A DNA stretch of 38,860 bases, taken from Methanobacteriota archaeon. GTDB lineage: Archaea; Thermoplasmatota; Poseidoniia; Poseidoniales; Poseidoniaceae. Location: the NCBI GenBank assembly GCA_018662825.1, contig JABJFI010000087.1:1-38860 (forward strand), read 5' to 3'. Position 1 is the first letter of the stretch. Every line of letters starts with the position of its first letter. This document shows positions 6,092 to 8,529 of the stretch, piece by piece. The position numbers and the translations under genes are program-made. Below the pieces are notes generated by a model, which was not told where the DNA came from, did not search any database, and was given only the letters and a program-made list of their open reading frames with translations.

Positions 6092-7582
6092 TCAAACCTT
6101 GAGGTTTGCTTGTCGAGCCATCAACACAATATTCATGCTGTGTTCCAGCATTGCTGCATTTGCCCATGCTTGGTCTAGGTCAGCGCCAACAGCGTAAGCG
6201 CCCATTCCGCGAATCACGACACAACGCATACTTCCTTGTTTGAGCGCTTCCAAAACCTGGCCCAAGAAATTCTCAGGATTATCTTCATCGGGATCGACAA
6301 TAATGACCTTGCCAATTTGCTCTTTTCCGGTAACATCGATAGGTTGTAGAAGTACCAAGTCCTTTTCACTACTTACAGCAGTTGTAGCCGCACCATGCGA
6401 ATGAATGACAGCAGCAGGGCCGCCAGTTACCATACTGACAGAAGCAAGAATTACTTCCATGATTCTCCAGTCCGAAGGAGCACCGCGCGGAGGATTTGCC
6501 TGTCCGAGCAATCCTGCACACAATCCACGCTCATCAAGCCGAGGAAGCATGGTTCGATTGCGTGTAGCAATCATAATCCCAAGATTTTCAGGATGAAGCA
6601 TTGCGATGGTGCCCATTGTAGCTCGAATGAGTTGTTCACGGTCGAGTTGCCGAGCAAGTCGAGCAAAATCACTGACAAGATAGGCTCCGATGACAATATC
6701 TTCGATCACTGCAGGAGGCATTGGTGGCGTTTCAAGTTCTTCAATTACTTCAGCAGCGCCCGCCATGGATTGGCGCAAACGTTCTACTTCAGCACTGAGG
6801 CGAGCAATTTCTTGTTCCGCAAGAAGTTCTTGTTCTGATTGTAGCGGCAGGTTCTCTTCAACAGGTTCTTTTTCTGCTGCAGGAGGTTCTTCCTCACCCT
6901 TCGGTTGTTCAGTTTCTTCAACTGCTTCTTCAGGTTCAGCGTCCGTAGATTTCTCTTCTTCTGCTGCAGGAGGTTCCTCCTCACCCTTCGGTTGTTCAGT
7001 TTCTTCAACTGCTTCTTCAGGTTCTTCCTCCTCAGATTTTTCTTCTTCTACTTCTTCGGTATTCTCTTCTTCAGCCGATTCTTCTATTGAATCAGATGGA
7101 GTTTCAGAATCGTCTTCAGCAGGTGCTTTCGATGGAGGCCCCGATGGTGGACCTGACGGTGGACCCGACGGAGGGCCTGACGGTGGACCGGACGGAGGGC
7201 CGGATGGAGGGCCGGACGGCCCTGTTGGCGCAGGCGCATCATCTTGTGATTCAGAAGCAGGGTCTTCGGACGGAGGACCAGACGGAGGACTAGACGGAGG
7301 GCCAGATGGAGGACCTGATGGAGGACCTGATGGAGGGCCGGACGGCCCTGTTGGCGCAGTATCATCTTCCTTTTCAGAATCTACGGCTTCTTCAGAAATT
7401 TCTTCTTCGACTTCTTCCTCTAAGGCAGGTTCCTCAACTGCTTCGACGGTTTCAACAACCTCTTCTTCAGGGGCTTTCTGTAGCTCACCTAAGCCTCCAA
7501 AAGCGGCATCAAGAAGGTTTCCAACTTGAGCATCCTTTTGCTCTTCTTTTGTTTGTTCAGCAGATGTTTTTTTTCCCGCCAC
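6092..7582 (-). CDS. class II aldolase/adducin-fold protein with acidic and (GPPS)n repeat N-terminal region
   Basis: C-terminal ~200 aa: LIRATMGTIAMLHPENLGIMIATRNRTMLPRL...AAVIHSHGAATTAVS...CVVIRGMGAYAVGADLDQAWANAAMLEHSMNIVLMARQ. N-terminal ~250 aa is low complexity. Confidence 0.8.
   Translation of the reverse strand: MAGKKTSAEQTKEEQKDAQVGNLLDAAFGGLGELQKAPEEEVVETVEAVEEPALEEEVEEEISEEAVDSEKEDDTAPTGPSGPPSGPPSGPPSGPPSSPPSGPPSEDPASESQDDAPAPTGPSGPPSGPPSGPPSGPPSGPPSGPPSGPPSKAPAEDDSETPSDSIEESAEEENTEEVEEEKSEEEEPEEAVEETEQPKGEEEPPAAEEEKSTDAEPEEAVEETEQPKGEEEPPAAEKEPVEENLPLQSEQELLAEQEIARLSAEVERLRQSMAGAAEVIEELETPPMPPAVIEDIVIGAYLVSDFARLARQLDREQLIRATMGTIAMLHPENLGIMIATRNRTMLPRLDERGLCAGLLGQANPPRGAPSDWRIMEVILASVSMVTGGPAAVIHSHGAATTAVSSEKDLVLLQPIDVTGKEQIGKVIIVDPDEDNPENFLGQVLEALKQGSMRCVVIRGMGAYAVGADLDQAWANAAMLEHSMNIVLMARQANLKV
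6873..7024. repeat. two ~65-bp near-identical direct repeats (6873-6937 and 6960-7024, offset 87 bp = 29 codons) encoding an acidic PEEAVEETEQPKGEEEPPAAE unit
   Basis: tctgctgcaggaggttc(t/c)tcctcacccttcggttgttcagtttcttcaactgcttcttcaggttc occurs twice. Confidence 0.85.
7130..7231. repeat. 12-bp in-frame tandem repeat (GPPS units), block 1
   Basis: gatggaggcccc/gatggtggacct/gacggtggaccc/gacggagggcct... repeated; encodes (GPPS)n on the minus strand. Confidence 0.9.
7267..7357. repeat. 12-bp in-frame tandem repeat (GPPS units), block 2
   Basis: ggacggaggaccagacggaggactagacggagggccagatggaggacctgatgg...; both blocks end with identical ggagggccggacggccctgttggcgca. Confidence 0.9.
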
Positions 7583-7650: not shown

Positions 7651-7722
7651 GCCCGCTTGGTGTAGAGGTTATCATGCAGGATTGTCATTCCTGCGACCCG
7701 AGTTCAATTCTCGGAGTGGGCG
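7651..7722 (+). tRNA. tRNA-Asp (anticodon GTC)
   Basis: Acceptor GCCCGCT/AGTGGGC, anticodon stem CAGGA-TTGTCAT-TCCTG with GTC, T arm CCGAG-TTCAATT-CTCGG; CCA not encoded. Confidence 0.93.
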
Positions 7723-7859
7723 CCTACTTCTTCATTCCAAGAGATTTGAAATACCGTCATATTCCCATGTTTTTGGGTAGGGTCTTTACTTTTCATCCAA
7801 TTCATAGTTCTTGGGTTCTTTATATGGAGTTGAATTAACCAATTTGCTGAAGTGATATT

Positions 7860-8294
7860 ATGAGTGAAAAAACATACACCGTAGAAATAGCAGATGCCAC
7901 TGGACACAGCGTTGTCGAGATGACCAAGACCGACCTAATTGACCAGGCCTCAAAGAGCCAAGGCAGTTGGATTTTTGTTGACAACCGCATGGTTGCAGCA
8001 GACGAACTTGCGAACACAGACTTCGATGCCGCACAGCACATCCGCATGGTTCCAGCCCTTCAAGCAGGCAAAGGACCGAGCGAAGAAACAACCTATACCG
8101 TTGAAATCGCAGATGCCACTGGACACAGCGTTGTCGAGATGACAAAGAACGAAATCGTAGAACAAGCCAAGCAACAATCAGGTTCTTGGGTATTTGTCGA
8201 CAACTGTATGGTTGCCACAGATGCTCTTGCAAACACCGATTTGAGCCAAGCCCAACACATCCGTATGGTTCCAGCACTACTTGCTGGCCAGTAA
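7860..8294 (+). CDS. tandem-repeat small protein, two ~73-aa ubiquitin/beta-grasp-like units
   Basis: TYTVEIADATGHSVVEMTK...GSW(I/V)FVDN.MVA.D.LANTD...AQHIRMVPAL.AG occurs twice at about 73% identity (49/67 by hand count). TATA-like tttatat at 7819-7825. Confidence 0.85.
   Translation: MSEKTYTVEIADATGHSVVEMTKTDLIDQASKSQGSWIFVDNRMVAADELANTDFDAAQHIRMVPALQAGKGPSEETTYTVEIADATGHSVVEMTKNEIVEQAKQQSGSWVFVDNCMVATDALANTDLSQAQHIRMVPALLAGQ
7891..8143. repeat. 34-bp perfect direct repeat (7891-7924 and 8110-8143; 219-bp spacing = 73 codons)
   Basis: cagatgccactggacacagcgttgtcgagatgac identical in both copies. Confidence 0.95.
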
Positions 8295-8379
8295 CCCGTT
8301 TTCAACGTCTGAACGCCACCGCCCTCAAGGGACACCTTCAAGAAAGGGTGGCGGGTCGCGTGGAATGGAGTCGAATACT

Positions 8380-8529
8380 ATGGTTGAACTCGTTGATTAC
8401 AAATGCGCCATCTGCGGAAACCTTGAATCGTTCCACCGTGAACGCAACGGAATCAGTTGCAAAGCGTGTGGTTCTCGAATATTCATGAAGTTGCGCCGAC
8501 AAGGCAACAAAACGATCAAAGCCGAGTGA
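8380..8529 (+). CDS. rpoP: DNA-directed RNA polymerase subunit P (RpoP/Rpb12)
   Basis: MVELVDYKCAICGNLESFHRERNGISCKACGSRIFMKLRRQGNKTIKAE: CxxC + (I)xCxxCGSRIFxKxR signature. Confidence 0.85.
   Translation: MVELVDYKCAICGNLESFHRERNGISCKACGSRIFMKLRRQGNKTIKAE

Follow-up and report, generated by a model that had tools for sequence, protein, structure and literature searches.

Prokaryotic systems which combine a ubiquitin-like protein (Ubl) with E1, E2 and JAB proteins are already known. The bacterial type 6d operons of Iyer et al. (2006) encode a Ubl, a JAB, an E1, an E2 and an alpha-helical protein, and in type 6e one to three Ubl repeats per protein are accompanied by E1 and JAB (PMC1779556). 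In Caldiarchaeum subterraneum a JAMM protease trims the tail of the Ubl precursor (PMC5654768, PMC6043591). CsRpn11 trims the ubiquitin precursor in this organism but leaves linear human di-ubiquitin uncut (PMC6043591). For marine group II archaea, a 2014 survey of one genome reported only UCH peptidase and RING genes (PMC4327156). Here we analysed a stretch of 38,860 nucleotides (the window) from an abundant, uncultured marine group II archaeon, assigned by named relatives to Ca. Poseidoniales/Poseidoniaceae. It encodes a tandem Ubl. Because the family is accompanied by E1, E2-like and JAMM genes of its own, viruses included, it probably serves as the tag in a ubiquitin-like protein-tagging system not yet described. 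The best reading of this system is an undescribed variant of the prokaryotic Ubl-E1-E2-JAB systems.

The open reading frame of the tandem Ubl, spotted in an earlier note made from the DNA letters, is real. Its translation of 144 aa has no internal stop, homologues were detected in 28 of 60 related genomes (E≤1), and the position before rpoP is kept across the genus, three-unit relatives included. The downstream neighbour was correctly named RpoP (PF03604, 24.9 bits at a Pfam cut-off of 24). The two units are copies of one domain, as had been stated; 50 of 69 residues are identical (72%; the earlier hand count was about 73%), as are 72% of the bases. The longest DNA run common to both units is 35 bp, i.e. 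the identical segment was seen rightly and its length, given as 34 bp, was not quite correct. Translation bore out the unit ends AGK and AGQ, and after Gly143 only one residue (Q) follows. The counterparts of the GPSEET linker in relatives are short and variable. A TATA-like TTTATATGG makes it plausible that the gene has its own candidate promoter. A scan for bacterial (sigma-70) promoters found nothing, which says little because the host is an archaeon. Between the Ubl gene and rpoP an element (GGACAnnTTnAAGAAAGnGTG...GTCG) was present in nine of nine aligned loci; it had no match in Rfam and is possibly a leader of rpoP.

Table 1. Features of the tandem Ubl locus (positions in the window).
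Feature	Position	Strand	Basis
Tandem ubiquitin-like protein, 144 aa, two head-to-tail units	7860–8294	+	Translation, homologues, model, ubiquitin profile match
Ubl unit 1, end ...MVPALQAG/K; terminal Gly70 at 8067–8069	7866–8072	+	Alignment A2, 40 units
GPSEET, short inter-unit linker	8073–8090	+	Translation and comparison with relatives
Ubl unit 2, end ...MVPALLAG/Q-stop; terminal Gly143 at 8286–8288	8085–8291	+	Alignment, model, homologue tails
35-bp stretch, identical copy at 8109–8143 in unit 2	7890–7924	+	DNA comparison of units
TATA-like TTTATATGG, about 33 nt upstream of ATG; candidate archaeal promoter	7819–7827	+	Read by eye
Conserved intergenic element between Ubl gene and rpoP	8329–8360	+	Nine-locus alignment
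RpoP, RNA polymerase 7-kDa subunit, conserved downstream neighbour	8380–8529	+	Pfam PF03604 and synteny
tRNA-Asp, upstream of Ubl gene	7651–7724		tRNA call

The fold of the units was examined with an alignment of 40 units (A2), in which three residues are invariant: the terminal Gly, one Gly in the first hairpin and one Trp that precedes the third strand. AlphaFold2 run on A2 (pLDDT 86, pTM 0.74) predicted strands at 5-12, 15-22, 37-40, 43-45 and 61-64 and helices at 23-32 and 47-50. This β-β-α-β-β-short helix-β succession is the order of ubiquitin. Foldseek against the PDB retrieved mostly ubiquitin-like domains (SUMO, Get5, ubiquilin, Caldiarchaeum CsUb) with modest scores (E about 0.01-0.09, all above 0.009; TM 0.38-0.58). 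When the family profile was run against 177,635 PDB sequences, about 20 of the 23 matches were ubiquitin entries, the small E-values stemming from tandem ubiquitin chains and a single ubiquitin reaching E of about 0.8. The profile alignment put the terminal G-G of the family on the G-G of ubiquitin and coincided with the hand alignment of IFVDNRMV...PALQAG to ubiquitin IFAGKQLE...LRLRGG in the earlier note. With this profile ubiquitin scored above 2000 of 2000 of its own shuffles; in hhalign the family matched ubiquitin at E 0.0035 with a probability of only 9%. The predicted strand order, the weak Foldseek matches and the PDB profile search support the suggestion that the window units would have a ubiquitin-like beta-grasp fold. 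No family of the curated Pfam, NCBIfam and PADLOC collections was above cut-off for the window protein. The multiubiquitin profile PF14452, which the earlier note had put up for comparison, matched neither the window protein nor its own genome. DUF936, CssAB, Polyoma_coat2 and T9SS DNase came up below cut-off, partially and inconsistently among members, and were dismissed as chance matches. Lambda_tail_I was the commonest weak match, seen in 7 of 40 members at a best E of 0.005; it is a hint only. Lambda_tail_I is itself a Ubl family (PMC1779556).

The proposed survey of homologues disclosed one to four repeats, mostly with GG followed by a tail. Of the 54 complete cellular homologues, 14 are single-unit proteins, and 30 contain two units, nine three and one four. 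Most relatives end their units with P-x-L-V-G-G; A-G ends occur in the window clade and two others. The last Gly is invariant in the family, and in all 54 complete cellular homologues it is trailed by 1 to 19 further residues at the protein end. Therefore, no cellular homologue ends on Gly. This layout is that of ubiquitin precursors which need a protease. Among distinct viral homologues, 13 of 43 carry the terminal G-G at the exact protein end. The caution of the earlier note concerning conjugation stands: with AGK and AGQ the window units are devoid of the C-terminal Gly-Gly, and because they end with AG, conjugation may have been lost in the window clade.

Operons and fusions tie the Ubl to E1 and JAMM proteins. 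In the first two relatives of the same genus a single-unit Ubl, a ThiF-type E1 and a JAMM-motif protein are encoded directly in a row, and two more relatives have the same arrangement. Other arrangements are a Ubl beside an E1-JAMM fusion and a small helical protein, or a row of AAA, E2-like, Ubl, E2-like, E1 and JAMM. Most telling is the genome G154, in which one ORF of 424 aa is a Ubl-Ubl-E1 fusion, followed by JAMM. In the window genome the Ubl, E1 and E2-like genes are unlinked. A search of this genome, as the earlier note had advised, identified a dedicated E1 and a JAMM on contig C100: the E1, a JAMM of 183 aa and a helical-looking protein of 79 aa lie head to tail with 4-nt overlaps. 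This E1 is 46% identical to an operonic E1, scores over the PF00899 cut-off and belongs to the ThiF/MoeB superfamily. The E1-JAMM-helical order recurs in most genus members examined and in a second family; in a one-contig genome (G074) it runs on into an E2-like gene. Catalytic residues are conserved. In 24 JAMM sequences E60, H98, H100, S108 and D111 are invariant, corresponding to Glu plus H-x-H-x7-S-x2-D (with x6 spacing in five sequences), and in the E1 alignment GxGGIG, Asp residues and Cys155 are invariant. In two Ubl cassettes the AAA ATPase is closest to proteasome-activating nucleotidases, which hints that proteins bearing the tag may be unfolded.

A conserved I-C-I/L motif in proteins encoded beside the Ubl exposed an E2-like family. 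The window genome has three such genes (on contigs C87, C99 and C120), and the Cys is invariant in 29 sequences. AlphaFold2 modelled the domain encoded on C87 with a pLDDT of 84.5. In Foldseek, ubiquitin-conjugating enzymes accounted for almost all of its top 50 PDB matches, at weak scores (E at least 0.09, TM 0.2-0.42). With the family profile UBE2D2 was not above its shuffles, and hhalign gave E 0.09. Because homology was not obtained at the sequence level, the prediction that the three proteins are E2-like draws on the modelled fold and the Cys position only.

The tie is also apparent from co-occurrence. Of 296 genomes of the phylum, 39 contain the Ubl, 42 the E1, 44 the JAMM and 45 the E2-like protein, and 36 contain all four. 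Kinship and the inclusion of genomes from outside the order inflate the raw Fisher values of about 1e-39. Among the 60 nearest genomes, 23 have both Ubl and E1, 29 have neither and eight are mixed (17, 22 and 4, respectively, in those at least 80% complete). Upon shuffling within genera the observed Ubl/E1 overlap was reached in 18 of 100,000 cases, the observed Ubl/E2-like overlap never. In the second family, six genomes have both Ubl and E1 and 18 have neither. Four genomes (G001, G009, G023, G210) possess E1, JAMM and E2-like genes without a detectable Ubl. In such Ubl-negative, E1-positive genomes the gene may be gone through incompleteness or divergence.

How does this set compare with the described systems? 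With type 6d/PRTRC it shares a small Ubl with a conserved C-terminal Gly, a stand-alone JAB, a ThiF-type E1, an E2-like protein with Cys and a small extra protein, and PRTRC_ThiF was among the best named models for the E1. However, the host is an archaeon, the E1 reached 50.2 bits with PRTRC_ThiF (TIGR03736), far below the cut-off of 144.75, and the window Ubl matched none of the PRTRC models. In addition, the Ubl is tandem and often unlinked, and the E2-like family is not in Pfam. Type 6e/Multi_ubiq has Ubl repeats in one protein plus E1 and JAB in common with our set, yet there is no PF14452 match and the E2-like Cys is kept here, whereas it is absent from the E2-fold protein of 6e. Judged by its sequences, the system is formally a member of neither PRTRC nor Multi_ubiq. 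The Caldiarchaeum subterraneum operon (PMC5654768, PMC6043591) similarly encodes an archaeal Ubl precursor with a C-terminal tail, E1, E2 and JAMM; it is eukaryote-like with a RING E3 and Rpn11, whereas here the E1 is ThiF/PRTRC-like, the precursor consists of repeats and the JAMM matched no curated model. The SAMP/UbaA/JAMM system of haloarchaea also comprises an archaeal beta-grasp modifier, a ThiF-type E1 and JAMM, but the UbaA model scored far below its cut-off. The SAMP system is not known to include an E2, and SAMPs are single-domain proteins. Eukaryotic polyubiquitin genes equally have head-to-tail, Gly-ended units with one or more extra residues at the end; the units here are diverged (72%) and have spacers between them, and no orthology is claimed. 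The anti-phage Ubl systems of PADLOC-DB yielded nothing for Ubl, JAMM or E2-like protein and generic partial similarity for the E1 only (E1-E2 model, 5.5e-11).

Viral relatives were found as well. An IMG/VR scan with the E1 alignment returned 237 relatives; when viral contigs were scanned with just one protein as query, the accessory Ubl or E1, no relatives came up. By their markers, the best 80 of the 237 fall into 68 contigs of archaeal type (TFB-like, Cpn60, ATP-dependent ligase) and 12 of phage type (sigma factor, PolA), without overlap. E1 and JAMM are present on all 68 archaeal-type contigs among these 80, and in 51 of the 68 the fetched stretch also includes Ubl and E2, which completes the Ubl-E2-E1-JAMM set. 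With the cellular family the viral Ubls give matches as good as E 1e-21. The archaeal-type contigs, assigned by markers only, fit magrovirus-like genomes; magroviruses are viruses of marine group II (PMC10768690). A passage of PMC8276007 lists the MoeB/ThiF gene among the commonest auxiliary genes of archaeal viruses and is silent on the other cassette genes. In INPHARED phages no Ubl match and only four, distant E1s were detected. The 12 phage-type contigs, L165 included, contain E2-like, Ubl and E1 genes. In L165 the Ubl ends exactly with SLVGG, and a Prok-JAB (PF14464 over cut-off) is located between Ubl and E1. In the host genus, accessory Ubl cassettes at four loci (L036, L037, L038, L039) adjoin a T7-like single-subunit RNA polymerase (in L038 with PF00940 at 3.8e-46; in L037 as a C-terminal piece) and are also beside several zinc-ribbon plus E2-like proteins. 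They therefore resemble a virus or plasmid of a kind other than the magrovirus type.

We consider it likely that the window gene encodes a polyubiquitin-like precursor which is cut, activated and E2-transferred by a dedicated E1/JAMM/E2-like pathway. The JAMM from contig C100 would cut the precursor after the terminal Gly of each unit, just as CsRpn11 trims the precursor of Caldiarchaeum. The adjacent E1 would adenylate the exposed Gly and take the unit as a thioester, probably on the invariant Cys155; one of the three E2-like proteins would pass it on to target proteins, from which the JAMM might later remove it. We infer that the units are cleaved, activated, transferred as thioesters and conjugated to targets, because the parts are those of a known chemistry. 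The same parts could work differently: the Ubl might be activated by the E1 and serve as a sulfur carrier or as a SAMP/Urm1-type modifier with no true E2 step, the E2-like proteins being binders. An E1 of the ThiF/MoeB superfamily would suit this, and a passage in PMC2948915 describes archaeal Ubls of the SAMP kind as functionally versatile. We regard it as unlikely since the genome has a separate MoeB-like E1 (406-aa ORF, PF00899 1.8e-80) and the dedicated E1 travels with a JAMM and Cys-bearing E2-like proteins. Nor is a polyubiquitin-like repeat layout known as a typical trait of sulfur carriers.

Less probable still is a retired or re-purposed tandem Ubl in the window clade, a stable binding module never cut or conjugated. 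Its AG ends, the continued fusion of the units and a gene unlinked from E1 and JAMM would agree with this, but the AG clade conserves the last Gly plus a tail residue, its genomes mostly retain E1, JAMM and E2-like genes, and, unusual as an AG end is, in UFM1 and ATG12 a single terminal Gly suffices. Finally, missing curated Pfam/NCBIfam matches and modest TM values might be taken to mean that the domain is not a ubiquitin-like beta-grasp and that its link to E1 and JAMM reflects shared mobile-element history. The Ubl-Ubl-E1 fusion, ubiquitin as the best profile match and the within-genus co-occurrence make this very improbable.

If the Ubl precursor is indeed processed and conjugated, archaea would have a ubiquitin-like system that differs from the eukaryote-like one known in Caldiarchaeum, with a polyubiquitin-style gene in a prokaryote whose repeats vary in number from one to four. 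A wider picture is offered tentatively; it might hold, yet we would sooner doubt than assert it. Marine group II archaea would have a complete Ubl conjugation pathway that starts from a polyubiquitin-like precursor and, because their viruses carry a rival Ubl-E1-E2-JAMM copy, protein tagging would be a control point contested between archaea and viruses, possibly feeding a proteasome-type AAA unfoldase. Such a system may also account for the frequency of MoeB/ThiF in archaeal viruses noted in the above passage of PMC8276007.

Two more ThiF-type E1 genes were noticed in the window genome (C66:942-2510, L082; C8:36-2339, L081). Each adjoins a CDC48-like AAA ATPase, and the C66 E1 has 522 aa including an N-terminal part of about 220 aa. 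Possibly these belong to another Ubl or E1-AAA system. In the window itself, a neighbouring ORF on the minus strand (6092-7582) contains two blocks of tandem GPPSGPPS repeats (7084-7365); they are located in an acidic N-terminal half which is joined to an Aldolase_II-type match (PF00596, 1.1e-11).
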